From the IMG/VR virus record IMGVR_UViG_3300008050_000079, positions 1 to 46,761 of that record: a stretch of DNA of 46,761 bases. The stretch is one strand, 5' to 3'. The position numbers and the translations under genes were made by a program. Source of the DNA: a virus. Below are positions 4,037-45,088 of this stretch, piece after piece (the stretch's first letter is position 1; each line of letters begins with the position of its first letter). The notes beneath the pieces are model-generated. The model did not search any database and was not told the origin of the DNA. It worked only from the letters and a program-made list of their open reading frames with translations.

Positions 4037-5512
4037 ATGAGCGACATACAGTCAACGATCGAGGAGATGACCGATCTCGTCAAGGGGAAATCGGGCGAGT
4101 CTCAGGCGTATGAGCTTAACCCTTACTCGACAGAGTACAGCGCGCATCATCAGAGCGGGTTACTCGGTGACCAACATCAGGGAACAATAGGCGCGCTCAG
4201 TTACGCGACACTCAGAGCGCTCGCGAGAGTACCTCTGATCTCAGGTATCATTCAGACGCGCGTCTCTCAAGTGGCAGAGTTCGCGAGACCTCAACCAGAC
4301 CGACACAGCGCGGGTTTTGTGATCCGGTTGAGGGATCAGGCGACAGAGACGACGGACGAGCACCGAGAAGAGATCAAGGCGCTTACTGAGTGGTTGGTGA
4401 AATGTGGTGATTCAAGGGTCGTGGGCCACTTAACTTTTGAGGGGTTCCTGCGATCGATCACGCGCGATTCATTGACCCTTGATCAGTGCTGTTTTGAGAT
4501 CATTCATAAAGGGGGGCGCCCGATCGCGTTCAAGCCCGTGGACGCCACGACGATCAGAGTGAGCGCCCCTTCAGATGACGAGATCAAGCGAGGGCGCAGA
4601 GATCCCAAGAAAACAGCATTTGTACAGGTGATAGAGAATCGGATCGTGGCAGAGTTTGACGCGGATCAGATGGCGTTCGGGATCAGGCGCCCACGATCAG
4701 AGATCAGCTCTAACGGGTACGGGTATCCAGAGATTGAAGAGGCGGCGCCTACGATCATTGATATGGTGAGGGCGAAGGCATACAACTCAGCGAACTTCAC
4801 TCACGGCTTACATCTATCAGGGATCTTAGCGATTAAAAGTAAAATGAGCCCTGCACTCTTTCGGGCGTTCCGGCGCGAGTTCTACGCGATGCTTCAGGGG
4901 GGGAACGGCGCGAAGAAGACCCCAATCATTCAACTCGATCCAGAGGCGAAGGAGGAGGTTCAGAGCGTGAACATGACCAACAGCAACTCTGACATGGAGT
5001 ATAGTTCATGGCTCAACTTCTTGATCAAGGAAGTGTGCGCGCTGTACCAGATGGACCCCGCCGAACTTGGGTATGTGTTTGGTAACGAGGGTCAAAGCTC
5101 CGCGCTCAATCAAGGGGGGCCTGCACAGCGTATCGAGTACAGTAAAGAGAAGGGCCTAAGACCGCTATTAAGAGCGCTTGAATCGTGGATCAATAGATGG
5201 ATCATAGGACCGATCGCGCCCCATCTTGAGCTCTCTTTTGTAGGTCTGGATACAGAGAGCGAGTCACAGCGCCTTGATGCGATCTCAAAGAAGGTCAATA
5301 GCTACATGACCGTGAACGAGGCGCGCGCAGCGTTTGACCTTGAACCGATTGATAACCCGATCGCTGATATGTTGCTTAATGCGAGTTACATCAACGCGGC
5401 TCAAATGGCAGGACAAGAGGGCGCTGAAGACGATCAGGATGATGCTGATCTTTTACCCGTAAATGATAATGATAATGATGACGATGATCTTGAGATCAAT
5501 GAGGAGTTTTGA
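4037..5512 (+). CDS. Phage portal protein
   Basis: This 491-residue protein has the length and pattern of a portal subunit, which forms the dodecameric ring at one capsid vertex through which DNA enters and leaves. The stretch NSDMEYSSWLNFLIKEVCAL, then YQMDPAELGY and SALNQGGPAQRIEYSKEKGL, is characteristic of portal proteins near the wing/stem region. The carboxy end is very acidic (DNDNDDDDLEINEEF). A GAGGG site precedes the ATG. The next gene starts in the stop codon (TGATG), so helicase and portal are translationally coupled. The usual neighbour, MuF, lies 15.7 kb downstream. Confidence 0.92.
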   Translation: MSDIQSTIEEMTDLVKGKSGESQAYELNPYSTEYSAHHQSGLLGDQHQGTIGALSYATLRALARVPLISGIIQTRVSQVAEFARPQPDRHSAGFVIRLRDQATETTDEHREEIKALTEWLVKCGDSRVVGHLTFEGFLRSITRDSLTLDQCCFEIIHKGGRPIAFKPVDATTIRVSAPSDDEIKRGRRDPKKTAFVQVIENRIVAEFDADQMAFGIRRPRSEISSNGYGYPEIEEAAPTIIDMVRAKAYNSANFTHGLHLSGILAIKSKMSPALFRAFRREFYAMLQGGNGAKKTPIIQLDPEAKEEVQSVNMTNSNSDMEYSSWLNFLIKEVCALYQMDPAELGYVFGNEGQSSALNQGGPAQRIEYSKEKGLRPLLRALESWINRWIIGPIAPHLELSFVGLDTESESQRLDAISKKVNSYMTVNEARAAFDLEPIDNPIADMLLNASYINAAQMAGQEGAEDDQDDADLLPVNDNDNDDDDLEINEEF

Positions 5513-8500
5513 TGCACTATTTCAGCTATCTTATAACGTTACTCAAAGGCAGAAATCACAAATATGTAAGAAGAGTCCCTTACAGAGACAACAAAGGGCG
5601 GCGCAGATATCGTTATTTTTACAGAAACCAGACATTAAGAGGTCAGGGGTTCGGGTCGATCTCTGAGATTGCAGACGGGGCGTCTTATGAGTACATAGGT
5701 GACGACGGAGAGAGGGGGCATCTTTCCGTAAAGATTGATAAAAAAACAGGGAGAGCAGTAGCGACTCACGATGAAACGGGAAAAGTACACACTTTCCGCA
5801 ACGTTGAGCAATTTCAGATATTCATCAGAGAACATCACGCAGAAGAGATTAGCGAGGATAAAAAGCGCTTCTTTGATAGGCTGAGGATGGAGAGGTCAAG
5901 GGGAAGTATTAGAACCAAACTCACGGAGAGGCGCGCAGAATTCCTCGGCCTTAGTGTGCCACTATGGGAGGGGAAGGCCCCTCAAGGCATGATTGCAGAC
6001 ATTAACGACTTTTCACACCTGCGTTATAAAATAAGGCTAGAGGACAAGAGGGGGAGACTCTTATCGAAATGGGTTACAGAGGCCACAGCTCAGGAAATTG
6101 TAGAGAACGGAAGACAGGCATGGAGAGATGGAAAAGGGGAGAAGAAAAAACGACAGAGAGAAGAGATCCAAGAGCCTCTGACAATATATGATGCAGTACG
6201 AGAAAATCACAAAAAACATGCAGATGTATTTGAGTACGATTTTGAGACTTCCCCTCAAATGGTCCACCCTCGCGACCTTGACCCTGACATGTTAGGAGGA
6301 TCTGTCCGATTATGGGTGCGCCCAAAGGGAACAGATAAATGGCTCAAGCATGGACATGATTCAGGACACTCAATCAGCCCCGCGACTCGTCCTGACGGGG
6401 ATCATGTGTTTTGGGCGGGAAATGACTTCTTTGGTACAAGGGAACTCACAAGGGCCCTTCGCCACTCTGCTTTCAGAGATGATACGACGATAAAAGACAC
6501 CGTAGGGGCGGGAGGGTTACCTGTTTGGAAAACGCTTTTTTTACAAGCTGAGGAGCATGGATACGAAGCCGTTTTTGCCTTACCTGACACCAAGATCATG
6601 AACGCTACAAGAGGTCGTCGCGAATCTATCTCACTGAGCGCCGGAGTCCCTCCTAACTTTATGGGCCTTAATATTGAAGCTTTTAAATTTAAGATTTCGG
6701 AGAAAAAAGGCAAGTATAAAACATTTAGGAACTACACTCTTGAGGGAGACGATACACTTGAGAAGCTTGGTTTTTTTGAGGCTTTAGGGACTGGAAATTG
6801 GGGAAATATCATCTTTGGTAATCTGGTGGAGGCTACTCGTGGCATATCTCTGTCTGAGCGGCAAAGATCGATAATATCTCAGTCAGTATCTAGGCTCTCG
6901 GTGTGGTGGAGCGGTTTAAACGACCAAGAGAGAGAGGAATTTTATCACACATATCTAGACCCTGAGCTACAGACACAAGGGGTCTTGAGGCACCCCCTCC
7001 ACGAGAACGCAGACCTTGAAATCCCATCAGGAATGGAAAAGATGAGAAAACGAGGATGGTCTTTTCATGAGTATCAAAAGAAGGCAATTAATTTCGCCAT
7101 CGACCAGAAGCGCGTTGTGTGGGCGATGGAAATGGGCCTTGGTAAGACGCTCTCAGCACTAGGGGCATATCATCACATGAGGGAGCGAGGAGATATATCA
7201 AAAATGTTTATCACTGCCCCTCTTAGTGCTCACGGGAGTTGGATCGAGCATCTGGGAGGTTTAAGCAATGTAAGATATGAAGTATTGAGTGGAGTAAGTA
7301 AAAAAAAGAGATTGGAGGCCTACGAACGTTTTAAAAAGGGCGAGATTGATGTGTTAGTCACAAGCCCTGAAGCTATCAGAAAACCGAAAAGTTCAAAAGG
7401 TGCAGGGGATTATGAGCACATTGAAGAGTTCCTCAATGAGGATGTGCTATATGTTGCAGATGAGGTTCATAAATTCAAAGGAGGGGAATCAAGTCAAGGG
7501 CTCGCGTTTCAGGAACTGAGCCCGAAAGCGGGGGCCTGTATCGGTATGACAGGGACGCCTAAACCGAACAAACCAGAGGATTTCTACTATATCATGAAGC
7601 GAGTCAACCCTGACTGGGAGGTAAGCCATGATGAATTTAAGGAGCGCTATTGTCTCAGCGACGAGGAAGGGAACCCTGTCACATTTGACCCGAGCAAGCT
7701 TTGGGAGTTCCACGAAATCAATGCAGAACAGCTTTTTATCAGGAGCACTAACGACCCTGACGCTCGATTAAATCTTCCAGACAGAAAAGACCTTAGCCCT
7801 GCTTTACAACTCGATGAGACACAGAGAAAATTCATAGAAGGCCTCGCTTTAACAGCAGAGGTTAAAGCGGCGGCTGTTCGCGCGATGAACAAACCAGACG
7901 AAGAGAAATCAGGCAATGAGTGGGCTCTTATATCATGGTATGAGCAATCTCTTAACTTGCTAGGTAGCTTAGAAAGCGGCTCTGTGAGCGCAGATGAGAT
8001 CTCCTCTCAAGAGTTCCTAGAGCTTGCTCAGTTTGAGGCGGCTCCAATGGGACTTAAGCCAATGCTCACAAGAATAGATCAATTGACAACAGATCCAAAA
8101 TCCGCCGCCCCCTTAACTTGGGAGAGATACGCGAAACTTCAAGGGCATATGGGAGTGTATGAGACGCCTAAGATGCGACTTATCACAGACTCAGTGATTG
8201 ACCACTTAGAGACACACCCTGAGACGGGGGCTGTTGTCTTTTGCGAGTATGTGCAGGCACTAGAGACGACAAAAGAAGCACTCGTCAGGCGCGGTATTCC
8301 ACCTGATCAAATAGCTGTGTACTATGGAGCGGTCACGCCGAAAAGAAGACGCGAGATTGAGAGGCAACTAAACGAGGGAGAGATTAAGGTAATTTTGGGT
8401 CAAACAAAAGCACTGGAGACGGGGGCAAACTTACAAAAAAGAGCTAATTTTGTAGCTCATTTAAACACTCCCTTTGCACCCGACACGCTTACACAATCCA

Positions 8501-9093
8501 CAGCCCGTGTATATAGACAAGGCCAGAGGAGGCCTACGACGATCTTAAGGCCCACAGGTAGCCCGATTGATGAGATCAAGGATAGACTAGTCACGCGCAA
8601 AATCAGCCAAACAGGGCAAGCCACAGGCGCGGTTATGGTAGCCGATGAGGGGGCGATCAGAACAACCGCCGATAAGCGTAAGCAGTCCCTCGACGCAGAA
8701 ACGATCGCGAGGGTTTTAAATATCCCGCAGCTTGCAAAACTCACTGACAGTGAACCAGACATAGAAACAGTCCCCACCCCTCCACCTTTAGGGACAACAC
8801 CTGCACGCACGCTGACAGCTAACAGCACAACGGAAGAAATTATAACCCTTCAATACACTACAGCGGCGCAACAGAAAAAGATCAAAAAGGGGGAAGGATG
8901 GGCGCAGAGCGCTATCTCCCGCGACAAAAAGACAGGGCAGAACCTCAAAGACTTTTTAAACATGGCAATCTTTAAAGGGAAGCTACACACTGACGAGGCG
9001 GGACACGTCACAGGTTCAGACGACACCAAAACAAACTCCTCCTTTTGGGCAGGCGTTTATGTTCAAACCCTCCGAACGCTTATGGAGCAATGA
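5512..9093 (+). CDS. Polyvalent protein with tag domain and SNF2-type helicase
   Basis: The ATG at 5512 overlaps the portal stop by one base. The 1193-residue product starts with the tag shared with two other proteins (NHKYVRRV..GRRRYRYFY, residues 15-110). An unrecognised region of about 350 residues follows, then an SNF2-type ATPase: MGLGKT (about 541-547), DEVH at 650-653, TGTPKPN and ARVYRQGQRRP near 1000. SNF2 proteins use ATP to move along or remodel duplex DNA. The last 120 residues hold a Pro/Thr linker and a small domain. In the phage head it could be injected to counter restriction, like P1 DarB; that is inferred. GATC is about 1 in 220 bases here, against about 1 in 60 in the second helicase gene, suggesting recent acquisition. 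Confidence 0.85.
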   Translation: MHYFSYLITLLKGRNHKYVRRVPYRDNKGRRRYRYFYRNQTLRGQGFGSISEIADGASYEYIGDDGERGHLSVKIDKKTGRAVATHDETGKVHTFRNVEQFQIFIREHHAEEISEDKKRFFDRLRMERSRGSIRTKLTERRAEFLGLSVPLWEGKAPQGMIADINDFSHLRYKIRLEDKRGRLLSKWVTEATAQEIVENGRQAWRDGKGEKKKRQREEIQEPLTIYDAVRENHKKHADVFEYDFETSPQMVHPRDLDPDMLGGSVRLWVRPKGTDKWLKHGHDSGHSISPATRPDGDHVFWAGNDFFGTRELTRALRHSAFRDDTTIKDTVGAGGLPVWKTLFLQAEEHGYEAVFALPDTKIMNATRGRRESISLSAGVPPNFMGLNIEAFKFKISEKKGKYKTFRNYTLEGDDTLEKLGFFEALGTGNWGNIIFGNLVEATRGISLSERQRSIISQSVSRLSVWWSGLNDQEREEFYHTYLDPELQTQGVLRHPLHENADLEIPSGMEKMRKRGWSFHEYQKKAINFAIDQKRVVWAMEMGLGKTLSALGAYHHMRERGDISKMFITAPLSAHGSWIEHLGGLSNVRYEVLSGVSKKKRLEAYERFKKGEIDVLVTSPEAIRKPKSSKGAGDYEHIEEFLNEDVLYVADEVHKFKGGESSQGLAFQELSPKAGACIGMTGTPKPNKPEDFYYIMKRVNPDWEVSHDEFKERYCLSDEEGNPVTFDPSKLWEFHEINAEQLFIRSTNDPDARLNLPDRKDLSPALQLDETQRKFIEGLALTAEVKAAAVRAMNKPDEEKSGNEWALISWYEQSLNLLGSLESGSVSADEISSQEFLELAQFEAAPMGLKPMLTRIDQLTTDPKSAAPLTWERYAKLQGHMGVYETPKMRLITDSVIDHLETHPETGAVVFCEYVQALETTKEALVRRGIPPDQIAVYYGAVTPKRRREIERQLNEGEIKVILGQTKALETGANLQKRANFVAHLNTPFAPDTLTQSTARVYRQGQRRPTTILRPTGSPIDEIKDRLVTRKISQTGQATGAVMVADEGAIRTTADKRKQSLDAETIARVLNIPQLAKLTDSEPDIETVPTPPPLGTTPARTLTANSTTEEIITLQYTTAAQQKKIKKGEGWAQSAISRDKKTGQNLKDFLNMAIFKGKLHTDEAGHVTGSDDTKTNSSFWAGVYVQTLRTLMEQ

Positions 9094-12000
9094 TGATCTA
9101 TTTGTACACACCCGCACCGTCAAGATCTAGAGACCTTGAAAACAGAAAGCGCGCGCTAAAAGAAGCTTTAAAATCAACCACTCCTCTCCCTAAATGGGCC
9201 GCGTCTGAAGCCTTAGACCTAAATATAGAAGGACAACTTCACCTTAACTCTTCGCAGTTGAACAGGATAGCACAAGCATTAAAATCGAGAGAAGCAGGAG
9301 ATCTGATCACTAAAGGCGGGTATCAAGATGTACCTATGAGCAGGCGCAGAGCACAACTTCTCGCAGAGTACGCGGAACGCCTCGCGACGATGCTTGAGAA
9401 CGCTCCAGATGACAAGGATCTAGCTGAATGGGTACAGAGCAAGATTGACCGCGCGGCTTCTTCGATCCAGAGCGCTTATCATTATCTTGATCAAGAGGAT
9501 GATCTTGAGAAGGGTGCAGGTCACAGATACACGCACCGTAAACTAGTAGGACGTGATCCAAAGACAGGACGGGCGCGATATCGTTACTATTATCAAGAGC
9601 ACCACGGAGGAGGGATCACACGCGCGAAACTTGAAGAGGGTAGTGCGTTCAAGCTCACGTTCAAGGGTAGACGTGGACACTTCCATATAGAGAGCGTACA
9701 GGGCGATATCGTGACCGTTAAGCATGACGGGCGCGCAAACTCCAAACCTGTACAGATGAGCAAGGCCGAGTTTAGAGCGTTGATCAAGCGCCAACACGGT
9801 CAAGCGCTCGCGAGTCACACTGAGAAGCTACGGCGTCAGGTGGACAGGCTCAAGCGCAATCCAACGCGCAAGCGCTCCTCGCTAGGTCTCGCGCTCCATC
9901 GACTGAGACAGGCCGCAGAGAAAGCGGGTGTGACGTTACCTGAAGAGTATCAGAGAAAACCTAAGAAGAAGACCCGTGTGAAGCGTCCTAAAACGGCGGT
10001 ACAGGGTCAGGATAACTTTGATACGATGCCAGAGGTTGAGGATCTAGCGAACAAAAAAACATCTAGGGAGCGATCTCTTGCGCTGAGAGGTTACAAGCCC
10101 GAGAATCTGATAGAGATCGCGGCTCATGCATTTTTACAAGACAAGGCAGTAAATGAAGAGGTTGACGCTAAAGTAAGAGAGCTAGAGCGTGAGTATAAGG
10201 ACTTAGCAAACACGGAGGCGCGTTTAGGGAGCGAAGAAGAACTCGCAAAAGAAGGAGGATTTTATAGGTACCAAGACGCGGAGCAAGCCACGCGGGAAAA
10301 GCGCGAAGAAATACAGAATCTACTTCAAGCAAGAATCGATATTTATAACAAAGTTTACAGATCTGTTGTTTTACACTTAAGGGATCAAAAGACAAATTAT
10401 GTAGAGCGGCGTAAAGCTATACAGAGCCGTATAAAAGAACTCACTGTAAGTGTAGACACTTCCGAGACAATGCCCACAGCACGCGATCAGCTCACATCAA
10501 CAGCGCAGGAGATCATCACTGAGGCCGATCAAGATCATGATGAGCGTCATGATGAGCACCAGAGCATAGAGCAGTTTGAGCTTGGGGAGCACACGCACAC
10601 GAGAACGGGCGTGAAGCTGTTCACAGCGAAGCAGAAGGGGCGCACAGACCGAGACGAGTATAGGCGCCGTGTAGAGATCGCGAAGAAGCACAACGGGCGC
10701 TATGAGCGGCGATATGTGAAGGGGTTCCTCTTCAAGACCGCTGAAGATGCGCGTAACTTCGCACTTGAGGTTGAAGGAGGTCAGGTAGAGGAGAGCGCGG
10801 AGACCGTGACACCTCACGAGGATCACCCGCAGGCTGACAATTTTGAGACTATGGTTGAGGTTGAGAGCGCACCTGTACAGACAACAGACATTAGAACCCC
10901 CATATTGAGAGCGGTAGAACAGGCAACACCCGCACATCCTACAGGGTACTCATCAGACACAAGAGGAGCACTCACAATTGGAGGATTTAACGCTGAGGTG
11001 TACGGCTATCCAACCAAAAAGGAAGCAGTCGCAGACGCAAGGGCAAAAGGACATAAAGTGGGCGACGTTGTACCCGTGAGTAATCGCTTTTGGACAGGAT
11101 ACGCGATTTCCAGAATAGACCCTACAACAAAAGAGAGAGTGTTTTTTGACAAGACGAGCGCAGAGTCAAAGGCCATAAAAGTACCCCTCGCAGACAAAGC
11201 CACACACCAAAAAAGAGGACACTTATTTCATGAGGGTGGCGATATCCGAACGATCCGACGGGTACAGGGCGCCGATAACCTTGAGACGATGCCAGAACCT
11301 GATCCATCCCCCGCGCGTCAGGCGTTAACGGAGACCGCTGACGAGATCATGTCATCGAGCACAAGCGCGTTGAATATTGATCAAGCGAACGCTCAGGACA
11401 CCTTGACCGAGAACCGCACGAGGAATCCAGAGAGCAAGGCCACGGATAAGGGGCTTATTGAGAGCGCGCGTGAGCTTGCGAAGACCTCAGAGCGCGGAGA
11501 TGAGATCAGAGCCGCAGTGCTCGACCTCATGAACGCTCAGCAGCTCAAGCGTTACAAGCGCGCGACAGGTGAGACAGGACTCCGAGCAGAGGACATGATC
11601 GAGAAGCGGAGAGCGGCGCGTGAACGCTTAAGGGGCGCGACTTCAGGCGCAACGGTTCAGGGTGAAGATCGCTTTGATACTATGCCAGAGGTTGAGAAGT
11701 ACGCGGGGGGTGAGACGAACAAGCAAAGGGTACCGCGTGCCTCGTGGCGCTCTCGCATGGTCTCATATAACAAAGTCGATTCGATCATGGAGGGTAAAAC
11801 ACCCTCTCGCCTACCGTTAAAGACACAGGCTCAGTTTAAGAAAATAGAGAACCTGATAATAGAGCTTGAGCAGATGGAGCAACAGCGCACCAAGAGTGGG
11901 CGCCTTAAAGACTGGCAAGGTATCAAAGCGAAGCGTGAGGAGATCTTAAACGCTCGCCGCGTCCTACTTCAAAAATACGCATCTGAGCGAACGCGAACAC

Positions 12001-13601
12001 AGCACAGTGCCTTACAGGATCACACATTCTTATCTTACTACAAGCCCGCAAAGAGCACAGCGACCCCTGAAGACGTAAGAGATAAGCATGGAGACCGTCG
12101 CTCAGATCTAAGAACACTTAGGCGCTACTTTGAGACCCATGAGCCAGATCAACAGGGGCAGTTAACCGAAGCCGCAGAAACCCTAGACACGCGATCCACC
12201 CAACAAAAGACATTCACGCCAGAGATCCAGACGGCTATTGAGAGCCTTAAATCAAGGCATTTCACAACAAGAGGTAAAAGCTATCCACTTGAGACCTATC
12301 TTAAGACGCGCAAAGACGGAGGCATATATAGAACCACGGAGACACCCACAGAACTTGCGGATAAGATAGCTGAAAACCTGCCTGAGAACATCGCGTCAGA
12401 AGATTACAATATCTACGACTTCAGAGAGGACACACTAAGAGCGCTAATTGCTAGAGCGATCAATGAGGGAGTAGAGGCGCGTGAGACACCCGCAGAGCTC
12501 AAAGACCGTATAGGCTCAGTGATCACACAACGCGCGCAAGATAACGCGGCGAGCCAAAAGGCGCAGATCACAGGAGAAGGACAAAGAAAAGCACTTCGTG
12601 AGATGAGACGCAATATCAGCACACTCACAGGAGATGGATATTTTGACGAATACCGAAGAGGAGGAGAGCGTTCTTATATGGGCCTCGGTGCGATTGAGAA
12701 GACACTCAATATGTCAGAGAGACTAAACAACTTATATGTAGACGCGATCTTTAGAGAAACACTTCCTCCAGAGCTTGAGCGTTTCAAAATGCCCCTAACT
12801 AGATTCAGCTCAAGGGGAGCAGATGAGGTGAGCGGCGCCTTTGCAAATAAATATGAGACGGTAGGAGAGATTAGAGACAACATCTCAACAATCCGAGAGC
12901 AGATGAGAGAGACCATCAAAAGCGCTGTTAATCAAACATCAAAAGCTTTAGCGGGGAACCCCTACACATTGAGACTGATCAATCAATCTTATGAGAAAGC
13001 AACAGAGAGGCTCAATACAGATAGACAAAAGAACATTGAGAACGCGCGCGCCCTCGCTCAATACACAGATGATCCACAAGCCCACCTTGCAGAGATCCAA
13101 GAGCTTGAGCGCCAGAGTGATCAGGCCATAGCGGAGCAGGTGGAGATCAATCGTGAGTTTGCAAATGCATATATCCACGAAGCCTCAGATCTTGTAGAGC
13201 GCGCTCTTGAGAGCACAAAGGGTGAAGTGATTGATAGTGTGATGAGTGTTAAGACACCTAAAAACGCAGGACAGTTTACCGCGAAGGAGCAAGGTAAAGC
13301 GAACCGCAAGCTTATGGCGAGGATCTTTAACGAGGTATTTGAGCAGGTGAGGCGAGAGATCGGAGATGAGCCGATTGAGCGAGGAGAAAAACACCCGCGC
13401 AATATTGCAGACACTGTAAAGAAGCCATCGAAGACACCCGCTCAATTCAGAGAGGACATCAAGCGCGCAGACGAAGATAAGAGGATGCGCGCAAGAGCGA
13501 AGCGTGAAGCCAGACGAGCACGACGCACCCAAAAGAGCGCCCTCCACCTGACCAATTACCGATCTGATCTATATCGAACGATCGAGCGTCTAGCTTCATG
13601 A
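9090..13601 (+). CDS. Giant multidomain polyvalent protein with repeated DNFxTMPE linkers
   Basis: The ATG at 9090 makes an ATGA overlap with the helicase stop, giving 1503 residues. A helical amino part of about 140 residues leads to the tag domain (HRYTHRKLVGRDPKTGR..., about 144-245). Then blocks are separated by the linker near residues 308, 458, 583, 729 and 860. The block at about 495-580 (HTRTGVKLF...AKKHNGRYERRYVKGFLF) resembles small domains seen in other phage polyvalent proteins. The last 500 residues are mainly charged helix. I see no signal peptide, membrane segment or enzyme motif. Base composition alternates from block to block. Likely a head-carried protein; function unknown. 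Confidence 0.8.
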   Translation: MMIYLYTPAPSRSRDLENRKRALKEALKSTTPLPKWAASEALDLNIEGQLHLNSSQLNRIAQALKSREAGDLITKGGYQDVPMSRRRAQLLAEYAERLATMLENAPDDKDLAEWVQSKIDRAASSIQSAYHYLDQEDDLEKGAGHRYTHRKLVGRDPKTGRARYRYYYQEHHGGGITRAKLEEGSAFKLTFKGRRGHFHIESVQGDIVTVKHDGRANSKPVQMSKAEFRALIKRQHGQALASHTEKLRRQVDRLKRNPTRKRSSLGLALHRLRQAAEKAGVTLPEEYQRKPKKKTRVKRPKTAVQGQDNFDTMPEVEDLANKKTSRERSLALRGYKPENLIEIAAHAFLQDKAVNEEVDAKVRELEREYKDLANTEARLGSEEELAKEGGFYRYQDAEQATREKREEIQNLLQARIDIYNKVYRSVVLHLRDQKTNYVERRKAIQSRIKELTVSVDTSETMPTARDQLTSTAQEIITEADQDHDERHDEHQSIEQFELGEHTHTRTGVKLFTAKQKGRTDRDEYRRRVEIAKKHNGRYERRYVKGFLFKTAEDARNFALEVEGGQVEESAETVTPHEDHPQADNFETMVEVESAPVQTTDIRTPILRAVEQATPAHPTGYSSDTRGALTIGGFNAEVYGYPTKKEAVADARAKGHKVGDVVPVSNRFWTGYAISRIDPTTKERVFFDKTSAESKAIKVPLADKATHQKRGHLFHEGGDIRTIRRVQGADNLETMPEPDPSPARQALTETADEIMSSSTSALNIDQANAQDTLTENRTRNPESKATDKGLIESARELAKTSERGDEIRAAVLDLMNAQQLKRYKRATGETGLRAEDMIEKRRAARERLRGATSGATVQGEDRFDTMPEVEKYAGGETNKQRVPRASWRSRMVSYNKVDSIMEGKTPSRLPLKTQAQFKKIENLIIELEQMEQQRTKSGRLKDWQGIKAKREEILNARRVLLQKYASERTRTQHSALQDHTFLSYYKPAKSTATPEDVRDKHGDRRSDLRTLRRYFETHEPDQQGQLTEAAETLDTRSTQQKTFTPEIQTAIESLKSRHFTTRGKSYPLETYLKTRKDGGIYRTTETPTELADKIAENLPENIASEDYNIYDFREDTLRALIARAINEGVEARETPAELKDRIGSVITQRAQDNAASQKAQITGEGQRKALREMRRNISTLTGDGYFDEYRRGGERSYMGLGAIEKTLNMSERLNNLYVDAIFRETLPPELERFKMPLTRFSSRGADEVSGAFANKYETVGEIRDNISTIREQMRETIKSAVNQTSKALAGNPYTLRLINQSYEKATERLNTDRQKNIENARALAQYTDDPQAHLAEIQELERQSDQAIAEQVEINREFANAYIHEASDLVERALESTKGEVIDSVMSVKTPKNAGQFTAKEQGKANRKLMARIFNEVFEQVRREIGDEPIERGEKHPRNIADTVKKPSKTPAQFREDIKRADEDKRMRARAKREARRARRTQKSALHLTNYRSDLYRTIERLAS
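9526..9797 (+). repeat. Dispersed direct repeat, copy 1 (encodes the tag domain)
   Basis: This stretch aligns without any indel to 17986-18257, at a constant offset of 8460 bases. In the 60 bases I compared by eye (9541-9600), 50 match. The encoded peptides agree at about 84 percent over 88 residues. It is the tag domain of the giant protein and is a gene-segment duplication, not a mobile element. Confidence 0.9.
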
Positions 13602-13673
13602 GATAACGCTTGAGCCTTGATCCTGATATCCCTTATTCTGATCTCTCACCCCACGATCAAGAGAGGATGAGAG

Positions 13674-15653
13674 ATGATAGGGGATTTTGTATTTAAGCTT
13701 AAATATGCACGTTACAATGAAGAGAAACAGAGGCGTGAAACGTGGTCTGAGGCTGTGGATCGGTACTTGGACACGCACCGCGCGTGGTACGGTGACGAGG
13801 TTGAGGATCTACTCACAGATGTGAGAGAGGCGCTGATCAATAAACAGATTCTTCCATCCATGCGAGGCTTACAGTTTGGCGGTGATGGGATCTTAAACAA
13901 GCAAATGAGACTGTATAACTGCACCTGTAGTTATGCAGACAGGACGCGATTCTTCGCAGAGGCGTTATGGTTGCTCTTATGTGGTTCAGGGGTCGGTTTT
14001 AGCGTTCAGCGTCACCACGTCGCGCGATTGCCAGAGGTACGCGAACCAGAGACAGAGAGAGCGTTCACTATTGATGATTCAATAGAAGGTTGGGCGTGCG
14101 CTGTAGATGCGCTCGTGAAGGCATATCTAAACGGACACCCTCAACCGATCTTTGATTTTTCAGCGATCCGCGAGAAGGGTTCGCCGTTGAGTGTAGGTGG
14201 TGTAGCTCCTGGATTTGAACCTCTAAAAGAGGCGCTTGAAGGGGTCCATGACATCTTAAAAGGCGCGGTAGGTCGGAAGCTAAAACCGATCGAGGTCTTT
14301 GACATGACCATGTATCTCGCGGATTCAACGAGGACCGCAGGAACACGAAGGAGCGCGACGATCGCGATCTTCTCACCTGATGATCATGAGATGATGACCG
14401 CGAAGACGGGCGAGTGGTATATCACGCACCCGAAGCGAGCACGCGCGAACATCTCAGCGGTCATCACACCAGATACACCTCAAGAGATCTTCAGTAATCT
14501 GATCAAGAGTACGCGCGAGTTTGGGGAGCCTGCTTTCCTATTCCTGCCGAGTACAGAGCACGCGGTGAACCCATGTGTTGAGATCATCATGGCCCCGATC
14601 CTGATCAGAGACCGTAAAGGGCGCGCGGTGGAGCGCTACACGCTCGATCTACTGGACCCGAAGAGGCGCGAGTATTGGAGAGATCAGGGGTACACGTATC
14701 AATCAGGTTGGCAGGCGTGCAACCTGACCACGGTTAACGTGAGCGCGTGTGAGACTTCTGATGATCTTGTAGAGGCGGCGCGTCAAGCTTCGATCCTCGG
14801 AACATTACAGGCAGGTTATACAGACACGGGATATTTAGGGAGGATCAGTCAAAAGATCATGGAGAGAGAGGCGCTCTTAGGTGTCTCACTCTGCGGAATC
14901 ATGGACAAGCCCAAGATCACAAAAAAGGACGACCTTCAGCGCGCATCCATCAGCGCAGTGAAGGCGAACCAAGACACCGCGAACCTGATCAATATCAATA
15001 GCGCGTCACGGGTGACCTGTGTAAAACCTGAAGGAACAGCGAGCCTTGTACTTGGTGCATCTAGCGGTATCCATCCGGCGCACAGTAAGAGATATTTGAG
15101 GCGTATACAGTGCAATGATCTTGAGCCAGTGTTCCAGCACTTCCGAGCGGTGAACCCTCAAGCGGTAGAGCCGAGCGTATGGGGATCAGATCACTGTGTC
15201 ATATTCCCGATCGAGGCGCCTGAGAACGCGATCACAAAAGAGGATCTCACAGCGCTTGAACTCTTGGACCACGCGAGGCGCGTTAAACGGTACTATGTGG
15301 ACTCAGGAACAGCGATTGATCGCCTTGAAGGGGCAACGCACAACGTGAGCTTGACTGTGACTGTGAACGCGAACGAGTGGGAGAGCGTGGAGCGGTACTT
15401 GTGGGAGAACCGGCAAGATTTCACGGGCGTCTCTCTTCTCGCGTCATCTGGTGACTATGACTATCAACAAGCGCCCTTACAAGCGGTCTCGCCTGATATG
15501 GAAGGGGAACAACAGAGACACGCTTGGGGATTGTGGGAGATGTTAAACAAGACGATGACCCCCGTAGAGTACGATGATCTTGATGAGAGTACAGACAACA
15601 CCGCGCCCCTTGAGACCGTTGTGTGTGCAGGTGGACAGTGTGAGTTAACATGA
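13674..15653 (+). CDS. nrdJ: Adenosylcobalamin-dependent (class II) ribonucleotide reductase
   Basis: This 659-residue enzyme resembles monomeric B12-dependent ribonucleoside-triphosphate reductases, which make deoxynucleotides without oxygen or a second subunit. Visible are SMRGLQFGG, NCTCSY (C83, C85), GSGVGFSV, NPCVEI with C301 as the expected thiyl-radical cysteine and the following Glu, CNLTTVNVS with C349 as likely redox partner, KPEGTASLVLGASSGIHP, and a terminal CAGGQC pair for reduction. It is somewhat shorter than the 739-residue Lactobacillus enzyme. GAGAGGA six bases upstream supports the start. It follows the longest gap in the island (72 bases) and overlaps the next gene as ATGA. 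A reductase inside a late head-gene operon is unusual. It lacks the tag. Confidence 0.9.
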   Translation: MIGDFVFKLKYARYNEEKQRRETWSEAVDRYLDTHRAWYGDEVEDLLTDVREALINKQILPSMRGLQFGGDGILNKQMRLYNCTCSYADRTRFFAEALWLLLCGSGVGFSVQRHHVARLPEVREPETERAFTIDDSIEGWACAVDALVKAYLNGHPQPIFDFSAIREKGSPLSVGGVAPGFEPLKEALEGVHDILKGAVGRKLKPIEVFDMTMYLADSTRTAGTRRSATIAIFSPDDHEMMTAKTGEWYITHPKRARANISAVITPDTPQEIFSNLIKSTREFGEPAFLFLPSTEHAVNPCVEIIMAPILIRDRKGRAVERYTLDLLDPKRREYWRDQGYTYQSGWQACNLTTVNVSACETSDDLVEAARQASILGTLQAGYTDTGYLGRISQKIMEREALLGVSLCGIMDKPKITKKDDLQRASISAVKANQDTANLININSASRVTCVKPEGTASLVLGASSGIHPAHSKRYLRRIQCNDLEPVFQHFRAVNPQAVEPSVWGSDHCVIFPIEAPENAITKEDLTALELLDHARRVKRYYVDSGTAIDRLEGATHNVSLTVTVNANEWESVERYLWENRQDFTGVSLLASSGDYDYQQAPLQAVSPDMEGEQQRHAWGLWEMLNKTMTPVEYDDLDESTDNTAPLETVVCAGGQCELT

Positions 15654-17617
15654 ACAAAGATCGCTTGAGCGTAGATCGTCCACCCCTCTTCACAGCGCGC
15701 AATCGTAGCGCGTGGACAACGGGCGGTGAGGCGTTGAAGCGCTTAGGTGTCACGCGCGCTCTTGGTTACACGTCCAGTTCATTGATCTACACGATGAACA
15801 AGGCCGATGATCTTGAGCATCTAACAGCAGATGAAGAGGCGCAACTATCAAACGCGATAGGGCGCTTAAGCGATCTTTGGGCGAGGTGGACGGAACACGA
15901 GCGAGAAGAGTTCTATTACACGTTCCTGAACGTAGAGAGACAACCTCTGTTCAAGCGACCGTATGAGGAGCCTGAAATCTATATTCCAGATCACCCGCGC
16001 GGTATGGAAGAGATGAAGAGGCGAGGATGGACACCGCACCCTTATCAAGCGCGCGCTGTACAGTTTGCCCTTGAGCGTGCTCGTAGTGTTCTCGCGCTTG
16101 AAATGGGCCTAGGTAAAACTCTCATAGGGATCATGACCTATCACCTGCTCAAAGATCGAGGAGATCTCAGGCGCGTGATCATCGCGGCACCTAAGAGCGC
16201 TCATGCATCATGGAGAGAGCACCTCGAACTATCTAACGCTCAGATTCATGTACTGACCTCACAAACACCAGACAAGCGAGAGAAGGTCTACACAGCGCTG
16301 TATCATGGAGAGATTGAAGGTGTCTTGATCACACCTCAGACGCTCGCGATAGATCGAAACTACTTTAAGAAGCTCATGAGTCTTGAACCTCATTTACTGA
16401 TCGCTGACGAGGTTCATAAGTTCAAAGCACCTCAAGGGATCAATGGACTGTGTTTTCAAGAGTTGAGTAAATGCGCCTCAAGGGTGATCGGGCTCACTGG
16501 TACGCCTAAACCTAACGCCGTTGAAGACTTTTATCATGTGCTTGATCGGGTTAATCCTGATGAGCTTGGAGACATTCAAGAGTTTACATCACGGTACACA
16601 TACAGGAGACTCGCTCAATTTGACTCGATAAGGGGGCCGCAGTACGAGATGGGCGCTTTAAGAGGGGATATGCTCGGAGAACTCTATGAACGTCTCTCTG
16701 ATACCCTTTTCACGCGCAATACAAGCGACCCTGACGCCCAACTTGATCTCCCTCCACGTCAAGACCTCGCGCCATACATCGCACCAGATGAGAATCAGAG
16801 AGCCTTGATGAAGGCGCTTGTTCACATGCAAGCGGCGCGTGAGCTGAACGCGAGCACTTACTATGAAGCGTTAGAGGGTCATGCAGGCTTTACGGAACAG
16901 ATCGCGGCAGAAGGTGCACCGAAGACCGCACAGGCGCTAGGGATGAGACTTGAACAGTTAACGATCTCACCTGCGATCTTCAGCGAAACATTCTCTCTCA
17001 AGGCGCCAGATTATGAGAGCCCTAAACTGAGATGGATCATCGACACTGTGATGAGTTATCTCTCGGAGGACTCGGCACACGCGGCGGTGATCTTTTGTGA
17101 GTACATCATAGGGTTAACCGAAGCTAGAAAAGCACTGATCAGGCGAGGGATCAAGAGCGCTGAGATTGATCTCTATACTGGAGAGAGTTCAGAGACTCAG
17201 CGAGCAGAGATGACACAGAGGCTCAACGAAGGTGGATCAAGGGTTCTACTTGGACAGACAAGAGCGCTTGAAACAGGAGCGAACCTCCAACACCGCGCGG
17301 CGATGGTCGCGCACCTCTCAACACCGTGGGCGCCTGACACATTGACCCAGAGCACCGCGCGAGTATATAGACAAGGACAGAAGCGCCCTGTGATCGTACT
17401 GAGACCTTCAGGATCGAGACTCGAAGAGGCTAAAAATAAAGCGCTCACGAGAAAGATCATGCAGAGCGCGAGTCTTACAGGTTCATTGACAGACGCAGAC
17501 CGCGCAGTGATTGAGACAAGTGCAGATGAGCGAGTAAGACGCGCCCACTCAAGATTATTAGAGCGTGGAGCGTATGATCTTGATACAATACGGACGCTGA
17601 TCAACTTAGAGAGGTGA
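15650..17617 (+). CDS. SNF2-type helicase, second paralog
   Basis: This 655-residue protein is homologous to the middle and later part of the 5512-9093 protein, starting with EREEFYYTFL and GMEEMKRRGWTPHPYQARA. Motifs are MGLGKT, DEVHKFK, TGTPKPN, a QTRALETGANLQ region and STARVYRQGQKRP. It lacks the tag domain and the carboxy-terminal extension. The ATG overlaps the reductase stop (ATGA). Codon use and GATC density (about 31 sites in 1957 bases by hand count) match the rest of the genome, unlike the first helicase. It may act on phage DNA in the host cell, or with the tagged protein; function is not shown by sequence. Confidence 0.87.
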   Translation: MNKDRLSVDRPPLFTARNRSAWTTGGEALKRLGVTRALGYTSSSLIYTMNKADDLEHLTADEEAQLSNAIGRLSDLWARWTEHEREEFYYTFLNVERQPLFKRPYEEPEIYIPDHPRGMEEMKRRGWTPHPYQARAVQFALERARSVLALEMGLGKTLIGIMTYHLLKDRGDLRRVIIAAPKSAHASWREHLELSNAQIHVLTSQTPDKREKVYTALYHGEIEGVLITPQTLAIDRNYFKKLMSLEPHLLIADEVHKFKAPQGINGLCFQELSKCASRVIGLTGTPKPNAVEDFYHVLDRVNPDELGDIQEFTSRYTYRRLAQFDSIRGPQYEMGALRGDMLGELYERLSDTLFTRNTSDPDAQLDLPPRQDLAPYIAPDENQRALMKALVHMQAARELNASTYYEALEGHAGFTEQIAAEGAPKTAQALGMRLEQLTISPAIFSETFSLKAPDYESPKLRWIIDTVMSYLSEDSAHAAVIFCEYIIGLTEARKALIRRGIKSAEIDLYTGESSETQRAEMTQRLNEGGSRVLLGQTRALETGANLQHRAAMVAHLSTPWAPDTLTQSTARVYRQGQKRPVIVLRPSGSRLEEAKNKALTRKIMQSASLTGSLTDADRAVIETSADERVRRAHSRLLERGAYDLDTIRTLINLER

Positions 17618-17619
17618 AC

Positions 17620-17937
17620 ATGAGCAGGCTCAAACTCAAGGGAAATCATAAAGCGCTCGCGCGTCCTGAGATCCAGTTTCAGATCTGGCAACAGCTCACT
17701 CTACAAAAAGGACTGAGAAGGCGTTTCAACGTCCGAGGTGCTCAAGGTGAGGTGATCTTAGATCCTCGCGACACACCCTCTCAAGTGATCACGCTCATCA
17801 AGGCGCGCGTAGAGGAGAGCCTGCCACAGTACAGAGGCGAGGTTGATGTGGTCAAAGAGCTTGCAGGGGAAATGAGCACGCTCCACAAGACGCGAATAAA
17901 CAAACTCATGGACGATATCGAGGATATATTAAAATGA
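17620..17937 (+). CDS. Small basic protein of unknown function
   Basis: The ATG at 17620 follows AGAGAGGTG with good spacing; a GTG at 17614 overlapping the previous stop is the alternative. The product of about 105 residues has a basic amino half (MSRLKLKGNHKALARPEIQF, GLRRRFNVRG) and a helical end (KTRINKLMDDIEDILK). I do not recognise a family. Its TGA overlaps the ATG of the next giant gene, so it is translated in the same coupled series. It could be an adaptor or chaperone for the large protein; that is only a guess from position. Confidence 0.65.
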   Translation: MSRLKLKGNHKALARPEIQFQIWQQLTLQKGLRRRFNVRGAQGEVILDPRDTPSQVITLIKARVEESLPQYRGEVDVVKELAGEMSTLHKTRINKLMDDIEDILK

Positions 17938-20900
17938 CATTCTCTCTACTCAAGGCGCAGGTGCTCTTAAAAGCGGCACAGCACAAGTACACACACCGTA
18001 AACTAGTAGGACGTGACCCGAAGACAGGCCGTAAGCGATACCGTTACTATTACGCAGAGCATCACGGAGGCGGGATCACAAGCGCAGAGATTGAGGCAGG
18101 AAGCGCGTTTAAACTAACCTTTAAGGGTAGGCGTGGACACTTCCATGTACAGAGCGTTGAGGGCGATACAGTGACCGTTAAACATGACGGGCGCCCTAAC
18201 TCTAAACCTGTTGAGATGACCAAGGCTGAGTTTAGAGCACTATTAAAGCGCCAACATGAGACGGTAGAGAACAAGAAGCGTGAGAAGGCTCAAGAGAACC
18301 GTAGGCGAGGACGTAAGAAGCGTAAGGGGAGCAAGCGAACCAAGCGCAAGACCGCACCTCAGACACAGGCGCCAGAGCAGACTCCACAGGTTCAAGATCG
18401 CCCTTCAGCTTTAAGAGATCAAGCGATCAAACGCGATGCTCTGGAAGCGGTTACTCAAGACTCTTTAAATAACCTTGAGACTCAACCTTTCGCGGATCTC
18501 TCTGATGTGGGTCAAAAGGCGCTTGATCTTGAAGCGGGGGCCAACGCGCTTGAAACAGAAATGAAAGAGGCCTCTGAAGCGGAGAAGAAACAGATCAGGA
18601 AACAGATCAAAAGAGCGCGTAAACTCGCTGATCAGATGTTCCACTATGACAGAGCGCATGAAATGGTGAGAAATACATTGATTCAGAGGGCGAAGGGCGA
18701 GCAGGTAGAAATTCCAAGAGGAAATAAAAAGCTACAAAGCGCAATTGATCAAGTTGTCTCTGATTTAAAAGAGCGAGGATCTTCGTGGATGTTTTCAGAG
18801 CAGACTCCACAGGTCCAAGACCCAGAACAGGGAGCCGATAACTTTGAGACGATGCCAGAACCTGATCCATCACCTGCACGCGAACAGCTCACCGAGACCG
18901 CGCGGGAGGTTGTGCAGAGTAAACCTAAAAGAAAGCCCCGAAAGAAAAAGAGGACTGTTCGTGTAACAGCACTCGCAGAAAAGGCAAGTAAGGAGATCTC
19001 AGAGGACATTGGATCTGTGGGGAAGATCCACGCAAATACAGACAGCGAGGGTATAATCCAAAGTGTTGACCGAGGCCAGAGCAACGCTCATTATGAAGCG
19101 GCGGGCGCTGTAAAAAGGGCGCTTCTTAACGCTACAGATGGTCTTATCGATTACTATACGATTATAGGTTGGGAGGAGGACTCGCTAAAAAACAGTATTG
19201 TTCAAGCGGTGCTAGACGTATATCAACCAAACAAAACGGAAGAACAAGCACAGTTAGAATTAAAGCGCGCGATCGCTGAAAGAGTAATAGAGAGATTACC
19301 ACGAGGGATTGAGTCACTGAGAGACACGCCCGATTATATGAAGGGCGCCATACGAGGAAAGAACCGACAGATAAAAGAGCGTGTGAAGGTACTTGAGGCG
19401 ATCGTTGAAGACACAAACAGCGCTTTGGAAGAACTAAAAAAAAAAGGACCCGTTGAGGTAACAGCGCCAGAGCCTACAGCATCAGAGTTAAGTGACGATG
19501 ATCTGAGGCGTGAACTGTTACGAGCGAGAGCGGCGCTTGATGACCAAGGTACTTTGATCGATGAAGCACGACGAAAGCGCCAACGTATTAGCGATCTACG
19601 AAAAAAAGAGAGAGCTCTAGCAGAACGGGTGAACACGTTAGAGAACGAGTCACAGAGACGTACTCCTGAACCTCAAGGGCGAGGTGCAAAGGTTCCCTCT
19701 CAAAGTGAGCTTGATCGAGCGATTGAACAGGTGAGAGCACTTGTAGAGCAGAACCCTGCACTGGCTAACCGTCCAGAGGTCGCGGTGCTTCTTGGTTCAC
19801 CTGACAAGCAAGAGGTAGTCGCAAAAGGGTTACCTGATAGTGAGATGGTGATCACACTAAACGGTAAGACTCAAAACGTAGCTGTTAAATACAAGATCAT
19901 AGAGGCAGGTGACGCGATCCCTAGTCATGACGCGAGCGCGTTTTTTCAGCGTAAAGACTACCCTTCAGATGTACAAGAGCGTGAATATCACAACGCGAGG
20001 AGCGGGGAACAAGAGAAGGTCATCCTTCAGGCAAAGAACCTTAACCCGCTCTTATTGGTCAACACGAACCCTGACGCGATGAATGGCCCTCCGATCCTTG
20101 ATCAAAACGGTATCGCGTTAGGTGGTAACTCTCGCGTGATGTCTGTACAGAGAGCTTATCTCGCACACCCTGAAAAGGCGCAAGCGTACAAAGATTATCT
20201 TAAAAAGAAAGCCTCTACATTCGGACTCTCTCAAAGTGACGTGGATGGGTTCACTTCACCGCTTCTTGTGAGAGAGTATGTCGTTGAGGATCAAGGTAAA
20301 GAGAACCTATCAAAGATCGTGAGAGCGATGAACGAGGGACTGACACAAGAGTTTGACCTTCTCGCGGAAGGTAGGAACAACGCCACCAAACTTCTAGGCG
20401 ATAATAACACGCTGAGATCTTTAAGCGTGGCCCTAAGAGATGCGCCAGATGATACGACGTTAAACACGATGCTCAAAACAAAGGGAGAGCGCTTTGAGCG
20501 TGTTAAACGAGCCCTCTTCGCTGACGGGATATTGACAAAGCGCAACGCTTCAAAATACCTCAGTCAAGCAACGGGTACGATGAATGATGTAGGTGTAGCG
20601 ATGTTAAAATCAACGCTTCTTGGGTATGTTGTGCGCGATGATCGCTTAATGAGAGCGATGAGTCCAACTACAGTAGACACGCTCACAAACGCTTTCGGTA
20701 GACTTGCTGTTGTAGGGCTCGATAGAGATCAGGCTGAAGCGTTACAAGATGCTGTATATGTGTACAATCAAGTGACGAATAAGTCTAAGGACACAGGCGG
20801 GATCACTACAAAGATGACACCAAAACAGCGAGATGCGAGGGTGAATGAGTCTATGATGAGAGATCAAGGATTCACGTTCAAAGAGGCAAGCGGTGAGGAC

Positions 20901-21215
20901 GTTGCAGACGAGAGCATTAACTTTGAAAAGATCAAAGATCGAGTAAAAGACAACCCTTTAAGCTCTGCATTTCTTAAGATCTTAGCGCTTAACCCCACAT
21001 CAGGAACATTAAACAGATCGATGAAGGAGTTTGTAACGCTTGTAGACGAAGATCAGGGAGGTACGGACCTTTTCGGATCAGCGACGGTAGATTTTACCAC
21101 AGCGGCGAAACAGATCGCGTCAAAGCTCGCTAACAAACACGGAGCGCAAGACGGACTCTATAAATCCCTGATCGGTCTCAACCTACTAGATCTCTATAAG
21201 GCGCTGAGATGCTAG
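17934..21215 (+). CDS. Polyvalent protein with tag and DdrB-like ParB domain
   Basis: This 1093-residue protein starts by ATGA overlap. It begins with a short hydrophobic stretch, then the tag domain (HKYTHRKLVGRDPKTGRKRY, residues 17-110) and a Lys/Arg-rich tract (about 112-145). A DNFETMPE linker lies at about residue 302, with helical segments after it. Residues about 635-860 look like the DdrB-like ParB domain known from phage P1 DdrB and other polyvalent proteins: VQEREYHN, LNPLLLVNTNPDA, GPPILDQNGIALGGNSRVMS (near 730). DdrB belongs to the P1 system that protects injected DNA from restriction. The gene is joined to MuF by an overlap, supporting packaging in the head. The ParB fold call is from pattern recognition. 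Confidence 0.83.
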   Translation: MTFSLLKAQVLLKAAQHKYTHRKLVGRDPKTGRKRYRYYYAEHHGGGITSAEIEAGSAFKLTFKGRRGHFHVQSVEGDTVTVKHDGRPNSKPVEMTKAEFRALLKRQHETVENKKREKAQENRRRGRKKRKGSKRTKRKTAPQTQAPEQTPQVQDRPSALRDQAIKRDALEAVTQDSLNNLETQPFADLSDVGQKALDLEAGANALETEMKEASEAEKKQIRKQIKRARKLADQMFHYDRAHEMVRNTLIQRAKGEQVEIPRGNKKLQSAIDQVVSDLKERGSSWMFSEQTPQVQDPEQGADNFETMPEPDPSPAREQLTETAREVVQSKPKRKPRKKKRTVRVTALAEKASKEISEDIGSVGKIHANTDSEGIIQSVDRGQSNAHYEAAGAVKRALLNATDGLIDYYTIIGWEEDSLKNSIVQAVLDVYQPNKTEEQAQLELKRAIAERVIERLPRGIESLRDTPDYMKGAIRGKNRQIKERVKVLEAIVEDTNSALEELKKKGPVEVTAPEPTASELSDDDLRRELLRARAALDDQGTLIDEARRKRQRISDLRKKERALAERVNTLENESQRRTPEPQGRGAKVPSQSELDRAIEQVRALVEQNPALANRPEVAVLLGSPDKQEVVAKGLPDSEMVITLNGKTQNVAVKYKIIEAGDAIPSHDASAFFQRKDYPSDVQEREYHNARSGEQEKVILQAKNLNPLLLVNTNPDAMNGPPILDQNGIALGGNSRVMSVQRAYLAHPEKAQAYKDYLKKKASTFGLSQSDVDGFTSPLLVREYVVEDQGKENLSKIVRAMNEGLTQEFDLLAEGRNNATKLLGDNNTLRSLSVALRDAPDDTTLNTMLKTKGERFERVKRALFADGILTKRNASKYLSQATGTMNDVGVAMLKSTLLGYVVRDDRLMRAMSPTTVDTLTNAFGRLAVVGLDRDQAEALQDAVYVYNQVTNKSKDTGGITTKMTPKQRDARVNESMMRDQGFTFKEASGEDVADESINFEKIKDRVKDNPLSSAFLKILALNPTSGTLNRSMKEFVTLVDEDQGGTDLFGSATVDFTTAAKQIASKLANKHGAQDGLYKSLIGLNLLDLYKALRC
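17986..18257 (+). repeat. Dispersed direct repeat, copy 2 (encodes the tag domain)
   Basis: This is the partner of 9526-9797, aligned without gaps. It begins around ACACACCGTAAACTAGTAGG and runs through the AAGCGCCAACA segment at its end. It marks a duplication of a complete domain into two different proteins; the helicase at 5512 carries a far more diverged version with no obvious DNA similarity. Confidence 0.9.
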
Positions 21216-22234
21216 TATTAGACGCTGAGAGGCGCACTCGTCAGAGTATCATTGATCACTATGAGGCGTTGAGCGTGGAGCTGTTAGGTGTACGCGCTTC
21301 AGGTCTCCCTAGGGATCGTGTAGAGGCGCTCGTGCGCTCAGGTCATCTTGACCCTGAACAGTTAACGGGATTTGATGCAGGTACTCTTGATGAGCCTGTA
21401 AACCCGATCCTCTTCATTAGATTGATCGGTTCGCCTTATGCACGCGCGAACCCTGAAGAGAGAGCGCAGATGAGGACATGGAGCCTCAACCAGTGGCGTG
21501 ATCGTCTCACTGGAGTTGATCAGAGGTCAACGCGCCTGATTCCTTCACCAGTGATCAGGATGGATCGAGAGCCGAGCACTTTCGCCCCGTCGATGACACC
21601 TCACCCACGCTCGATCCCTGATCATTTCACATCAGCAGAGCGCGCGGGAGTGGTGAGCGCGTTTGAGGTCGCGGGATCATACATCAGAGGTTTAGGTGCG
21701 AGGTTCGCAGATGAAGCAAGCGCAGAGATCTTTGAAGAGTGGGACGGTGACCGGCTATTGAGCACGCCAGACCCTGAACGCCGCGCACAGATGCTTGACG
21801 TGATCAGAGAAGAGGTTGGGGTCGCGACACTGACCAAAGATCAAGCGCGAGCTGTGGCGCGTAGGATCAGACAGAGATCAGGAGACCTCGCGCGGAACTT
21901 TGAGCGCATCGCTGAGACAGAGATCCAAGCAGCGCATAACGAGGGGCAGATCGCACAAGCGGTTGAACTCGATGGAGAGGACGCGAGAGTCGCGCGAATC
22001 CCTGAGAGTGGCGCGTGTCAATATTGCATTGACGCTTATATTGATCCAGAGACTCAGCGCCCGTATATTTTCCAAGTGAGCTCGATCATCGAGAACGGAA
22101 CAAACCAAGGGAGAGCGCGCCGAAATTGGAAGCCTACACTCTATCCTATGCACCCTAACTGCAGATGTGATATAATCCCCGTGAGCCCGTCCCAGACAGT
22201 GAGCAGATCGGGACGCTTGGAGGTAGCACAATGA
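21209..22234 (+). CDS. MuF-like minor head protein
   Basis: This 341-residue protein carries the Mu gpF-type head morphogenesis domain in its last 130 residues: ARNFERIAETEIQAAHNEGQ, CQYCIDAYIDPETQRPYIF, and the closing YPMHPNCRCDIIP with its Cys/His pattern. MuF proteins sit inside the head near the portal, and a few copies are packaged. The first 200 residues are less conserved. The ATG overlaps the stop of the ParB-domain protein, and its own TGA overlaps the protease ATG. In many phages this gene directly follows the portal; here the cargo island lies between. Confidence 0.9.
   Translation: MLVLDAERRTRQSIIDHYEALSVELLGVRASGLPRDRVEALVRSGHLDPEQLTGFDAGTLDEPVNPILFIRLIGSPYARANPEERAQMRTWSLNQWRDRLTGVDQRSTRLIPSPVIRMDREPSTFAPSMTPHPRSIPDHFTSAERAGVVSAFEVAGSYIRGLGARFADEASAEIFEEWDGDRLLSTPDPERRAQMLDVIREEVGVATLTKDQARAVARRIRQRSGDLARNFERIAETEIQAAHNEGQIAQAVELDGEDARVARIPESGACQYCIDAYIDPETQRPYIFQVSSIIENGTNQGRARRNWKPTLYPMHPNCRCDIIPVSPSQTVSRSGRLEVAQ
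22168..22176 (+). promoter_or_regulatory. Possible extended -10 promoter before protease gene
   Basis: TGATATAAT at 22168-22176 is a perfect extended -10 element (TG-N-TATAAT) inside the end of the MuF gene, 55 bases before the protease ATG. I see no good -35 hexamer at the usual distance. It could drive protease, scaffold and capsid genes. It lies in coding sequence, so chance is possible. Confidence 0.35.
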
Positions 22235-44496: not shown

Positions 44497-44547
44497 AGGT
44501 CACCATCGACGTTCAAGGCGTCTTAAAGGGTGAAGAGTTTTAGATTT

Positions 44548-45069: not shown

Positions 45070-45088
45070 TTTTTTCTCTTTTCGTTTT

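Follow-up and report, generated by a model that had tools for sequence, protein, structure and literature searches.

What are six genes, three of which encode giant proteins, doing between the portal gene and the gene for a MuF-like minor head protein? The window, i.e. the whole stretch of DNA that we analysed, is a linear virus record of 46.8 kb that carries the structural gene module of a phage with a contractile tail; its features are on the plus strand unless stated otherwise. A sequence-only reading had described a cargo island between the portal gene (4037-5512; PF04860, 1e-21; phrog_12, 1e-50) and the MuF-like gene (21209-22234; phrog_115, 4e-12), and this was confirmed: portal ends at 5512, MuF starts at 21209, and six same-strand genes lie between them. 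They encode p2 (5512-9093; 1193 aa), p3 (about 9093-13601; 1502 aa), a ribonucleotide reductase that is probably adenosylcobalamin-dependent (class II, RTPR-like) (RNR; 13674-15653; phrog_367, 1e-100), the SNF2 ATPase p5 (15650-17617), p6 (17614-17937; 107 aa) and p7 (17934-21215). A TTG start of p3 at 9045, proposed by the list of open reading frames, was rejected as unlikely in favour of 9090/9093. Downstream of MuF come the head maturation protease (22231-22929), a probable scaffold in the position of SPO1 gp3.3 (22926-23498) and the major capsid protein (MCP; 23510-24970), followed by tail genes.

The reading that we favour, and consider probable, is that p2, p3 and p7 form a modular head-cargo cassette, the proteins of which would be tagged, loaded into the prohead, trimmed and injected, with payloads that can be exchanged. 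The phage is uncultivated, and it is from the features described below that we infer how these giants would enter the prohead, be cleaved, dock, be injected and function. As had been claimed, the island genes are mostly joined by overlaps (six of the seven junctions: portal/p2, TGATG; p2/p3, ATGA or TGATGA; RNR/p5, ATGA; p5/p6, GTGA; p6/p7, ATGA; p7/MuF, 7 nt), the sole gap being one of 72 nt located 5' of RNR. Promoter-like or terminator-like sites were not in excess in the island when compared with shuffles. The idea that the island is co-expressed with the head genes is supported, and p2, p3 and p7 would be made together with head proteins. A screen of relatives, which the sequence-only reading had suggested, found the same gene order again, so the island is not an assembly artefact. 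The inventory of two giants and two SNF2 proteins needed correction: there are indeed two SNF2 proteins, but three giants, since p2 is itself one of the SNF2 proteins, while p5 is smaller. The possibility that the island is a phage-borne defence system was rejected because PADLOC matched generic SNF2 only, with no match for p3, p6 or p7.

The three giants are otherwise different and have in common a very basic region of about 100 residues, here called TAG. It consists of a hairpin (HKYxxR...YRYYY), a small barrel and a helix, and is preceded in each protein by a hydrophobic leader and an invariant Lys-[Ala/Gly]. In p2, the leader MHYFSYLITLLK (5512-5547) ends at a predicted K↓G cleavage site (the arrow marks the putative cut) and is followed by the hairpin and barrel of TAG (5548-5856) and by the SNF2 ATPase (SNF2+Helicase_C). 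In p7, the leader MTFSLLKAQVLLK (17934-17972) ends at a predicted K↓A site, and TAG (17973-18287), with its beta-hairpin HKYTHRK..YRYYY and SH3/Tudor-like barrel, is followed by a linker, a DdrB-like ParB domain (ddrB-ParB, 19866-20279) and a C-terminal region. In p3, TAG (9510-9827) begins at DLEK↓GAGHRY (K codon 9510-9512); it lies behind an N-terminal helical region and ahead of linkers that carry a motif described below and of a conserved C-terminal part. The TAGs of p3 and p7 are 82% identical. Known domains are thus TAG plus SNF2 in p2, TAG plus ParB in p7 and TAG without any known domain in p3. One near-identical contig and some distant relatives have p2, other relatives being devoid of it.

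Among the proteins fetched for this analysis, the hairpin pattern was matched 93 times, compared with 1.85 in shuffles, and K13 was conserved in at least 90% of 45 TAGs. A K[AGS] was present at most 18 aa upstream in 67 of 69 unique hairpins, as against 32% of random windows, though the hairpins are related by descent, so that their number is not one of independent events. The spacing between K[AGS] and the hairpin ranged from 3 to 13, a variation that makes K-[AGS] more similar to a linear signal than to an element of a fold. A tblastn search for TAG in isolates returned nothing except one chance match (E = 2), and neither the tag nor the linker motif was found in the head regions of eight isolates. 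Like the capsid targeting sequence of T4 (IPI-III, Alt), the leader is short and N-terminal, and its removal by the prohead protease is predicted; it would direct p2, p3 and p7 into the prohead. The T4 prohead protease cleaves in the context L-x-E, whereas the island leaders end in K-[AG] and are then followed by a conserved tag domain.

Tagged proteins of other kinds were seen elsewhere. In L126 (6501-11816), L133 (1606-8616) and L129 (7024-9909), there are giants in which K[AG] precedes both of two hairpins (e.g. at residues 183 and 989); from their sequence, they are candidates for polyproteins cut at each tag. A tagged protein of L030 (4507-7344) has 55 C-terminal residues that match the C-termini of phage primases (phrog_19458, E 2e-16), and could possibly be a replication-linked cargo.

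Sites of the same type were found in the head proteins of the window. The N-arm of MCP contains SLQK↓GTVGYQTP (K codon 23564-23566), where K↓[GAS] is conserved in 19 of 22 sequences within a variable segment, and the C-tail of the protease contains LLSK↓GSVGYQTP, with a conserved K↓[GAS] in a segment shared with the MCP N-arm. The N-tail of the portal protein has a candidate site, DLVK↓GKSG (K codon 4082-4084), again conserved in a variable segment, and the scaffold has several conserved sites. No conserved K↓[GAS] site was found in MuF, a tail protein or a lysozyme-like protein; in RNR and p5, K↓[GAS] was conserved only inside conserved folds, and in no variable segment. A Herelleviridae-type capsid chain in the PDB (9row_B, 439 aa) starts directly after the VVK of the full-length protein (5lii_P, 463 aa), and this start aligns with LNK↓ALEAG of SPO1. 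It is presumably a cut by the head-maturation protease, although the start of the deposited chain may reflect the model rather than a sequenced N-terminus. Lys↓[Ser/Ala/Gly] is therefore the predicted cleavage site of this protease, which would cut the giants after Lys↓[Ala/Gly] in the prohead, so that the mature cargo would begin with TAG.

The protease C-tail (22681-22854) and the capsid N-arm (23537-23722) have about 60 residues in common (KGxVGYQTP...LVPQQL). This segment is also present in relatives and, in a diverged form, in SPO1, and appears to be used by both proteins for assembly and cleavage.

Portal, RNR, p5, MuF, protease and MCP of the sister contig L015 (3300030330_004812) have 95-97% identity to their counterparts in the window. 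The two p7 proteins agree at 80-100% over their first 160 residues (leader and TAG), residues ~161-1050 are unrelated (~890 residues replaced) and the last 30 residues match again; at the DNA level, homology ends at 18397 and resumes at 21177, which delimits the swapped payload. Within this zone, only 18796-18865 and 18870-18917, which are motif linkers, still match L015. The same patchwork was observed for p3, and L015 is devoid of p2. Some motif linkers match across genes between the two phages. Evolution here is tag-constant and payload-variable, as judged from this comparison, and the payloads behind TAG (SNF2 ATPase, DdrB-like ParB, unknown domains) would be exchanged between phages with joints at the motif linkers.

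The linker motif is [D/N]NF[E/D]TMP[E/D]. In p3 we found DNFDTMP (10011-10031), a degenerate copy DNFETMV (10836-10856), DNLETMP (11274-11294) and DRFDTMP (11667-11687), and in p7 DNFETMP (18837-18857). Giants from about 35 uncultivated phage lineages contain 1-5 copies, and tandem pairs spaced by exactly 12 residues recur. A codon-pattern scan of viral contigs found 60 stretches, often several per protein, whereas a scrambled control gave 12 matches, all of them single; in another comparison, there were 77 matches versus 0 for the reversed pattern. Chance was ruled out by these two controls and by shuffles. The Thr and Pro codons vary freely in 99 copies from across the lineages, indicating that it is the peptide that is under selection, and this also ruled out that the motif is only a DNA repeat. 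A motif protein of 300 aa or more was present in 39 contig groups; the fetched DNA showed a head gene in 35 of them and a TAG or hairpin in 33, in a sample that is not fully unbiased, some groups having been found by portal or TAG searches. The distance from motif to capsid gene was 3-18 kb in contigs of 78-110 kb. Because the motif is also found in giants with no detectable hairpin, it and TAG are separable signals. Matches in bacterial genomes were judged to be due to chance, these genomes having no TAG, and the host was therefore not found.

Most likely, to judge from these sequences, the motif would serve to dock the cargo proteins onto a head component that they share. The main rival explanation, to which we give a minor but substantial chance, is that it is a second protease site, at which the giants are cut into domains. 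Its location in linkers, its multiple copies and the tandem spacing would suit such a role, and P1 DdrB is processed (PMC5512222). Yet MCP, the protease and the scaffold have no copy of the motif and carry K↓[GAS] instead, which disfavours a site for the prohead protease, and the strict conservation of six residues and the exact spacing of tandem pairs fit binding better. We thus retain docking.

A structure model of TAG was of moderate confidence (pLDDT 75, pTM 0.50). The fold searches that the sequence-only reading had called for gave no significant match for TAG, its SH3/Tudor-like matches being weak, nor for the C-terminal half of p7. The basic character of TAG and its SH3/Tudor-like barrel could mean that it is a DNA-binding or structural domain with K-[AG] as part of its fold, the giants being scaffold or inner-core proteins that are not injected, and their genes do sit among scaffold and capsid genes. 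This appears rather unlikely to us: K-[AG] is kept in L079, L081 and L038 although its distance from the hairpin differs there, it lies in a low-confidence leader helix of the model, and payloads including a SNF2 ATPase and DdrB are swapped wholesale, unlike what is seen with a structural protein.

The kinship with P1 that had been noticed held up, p7 being homologous to P1 DdrB (hhalign probability 98.6%, E 1e-15, 238 columns; ddrB-ParB PF18763, 3e-18) over a region that extends beyond the ParB domain. The P1 Dar system (DarA, DarB, DdrA, DdrB, Hdf, Ulx) comprises large head-packaged proteins, and SNF2 and DdrB-ParB domains are found in the island as well. The N-terminal 30 aa of DarB target it to the capsid (PMC9024508), and DarA is trimmed by the prohead protease (PMC12810830). 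In contrast with P1, three proteins of the window bear one and the same tag, their leader has K↓[AG], the linker motif is present and the cargo genes are inserted between portal and MuF. A DarB-type N6-adenine methylase was found neither on p2 nor on p5 (SNF2+Helicase_C only), and the island proteins gave no Pfam or PHROG match to DarA, Hdf, Ulx or DdrA. The polyvalent proteins (Iyer et al. 2017, PMC5512222) are likewise large and encoded in the late region, with SNF2, DdrB-ParB and MuF neighbours; the passages of that article consulted here describe neither a loading tag common to them nor a linker motif, unlike what is seen in the island, where in addition no known domain was recognised in p3 and many payloads. 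By analogy with the P1 Dar proteins, the cargo would accompany the DNA into the cell at infection and would protect or manage this DNA. Since P1 shows such proteins to be packaged in the head, targeted and trimmed, protection of injected DNA is the most likely role of the tagged giants, and kinship with DdrB and SNF2 suggests that this may include anti-restriction activity.

The claim of an injected arsenal stood in part: p2, p3 and p7 have features for entry into the head, while RNR and p5 have none. RNR (659 aa) resembles the class II enzyme of L. leichmannii (RTPR; PDB 1l1l, E 2e-25) and matches TIGR02505 (E 1.7e-57, below the family cut-off), NPCVEI and a C-terminal CAGGQC being recognised by eye; it differs from RTPR in being shorter and sited in a late head operon. 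Its inclusion in the arsenal was not upheld. In SPO1 and vB_EalM-132, RNR is about 1-3 kb upstream of portal without any island, so its position needs no cargo explanation, and it is probably not cargo. The window shares with SPO1 and Herelleviridae the order portal-protease-scaffold-capsid and the K↓[SAG] capsid site (portal 33-38% and MCP about 25% identical to SPO1-like Herelleviridae), and has MuF and the island in addition. In SPO1, only 77 bp separate portal from protease, with no MuF and no cargo island; as portal and protease are ~77 bp apart in SPO1 and vB_EalM-132, with RNR upstream of portal, the island is an insertion relative to these phages.

The SNF2 protein p5 is a paralog of the SNF2 part of p2 (38% over 683 aa). 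The relatives of p6 have 217-387 aa, with a C-terminal domain (GLELRR...AWLLWGGDAG, phrog_2859) behind a K↓[GAS] that is conserved (17/17) in an otherwise variable linker; p6 of the window stops near the start of this linker and has lost both. RNR, p5 and p6 would be co-expressed partners of the cargo. In L009 (17645-21478) and L021 (3465-7487), the RNR and SNF2 genes are each split into three overlapping frames, probably as a result of sequencing frameshifts rather than introns.

The layouts of SPO1 and vB_EalM-132, and the absence of tags on RNR and p5, could also suggest that the late region simply happens to contain these genes, which would be replication or nucleotide-metabolism genes of an ordinary kind, with cytosolic helicases and RNR. 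This is likely correct for RNR; as an account of the island, we hold it to be improbable, as it leaves unexplained the tag shared by p2, p3 and p7, the DdrB homology and the swapping of payloads. Weakest of all, and largely refuted as a sole explanation by the freedom of the Thr and Pro codons, is the proposal that the motif is nothing but a DNA recombination joint enabling payload exchange, which the linkers still matching inside swapped zones and across genes had suggested; the roles of joint and conserved peptide can coexist.

To our knowledge, the loading of large polyvalent proteins into phage heads is detailed for very few phages (T4, P1), and a literature search found neither the motif nor the common tag described. 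Sequence alone points here to a shared loading tag, a protease-matched cut site and an undescribed linker peptide. The tag with its matched protease site, the payload exchange and the peptide make up a finding more specific and more testable than that of an arsenal. If the cassette reading is right, any gene behind the tag in environmental viruses could be predicted to encode injected cargo, and the tag could carry chosen proteins into bacteria. More tentatively, and with somewhat less than even confidence, we propose that dozens of uncultivated phage lineages use the leader-K↓[AG]-hairpin tag as a portable address for loading into the head, that multi-tag giants are polyproteins cut at each tag in the head, and that the motif docks to the capsid interior in the manner of an encapsulin docking peptide; together these would form a general swappable system for protein delivery.

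Two observations concern the ends of the window. On the minus strand, 42634-46726 carries DNA polymerase (phrog_17) and exonuclease genes that point toward the structural genes and form the edge of a replication module. At the left end, in a tail-fibre-like gene (163-1347), positions 12-1046 match one stretch of L015 repeatedly, which suggests a repeat array of about 255 bp.
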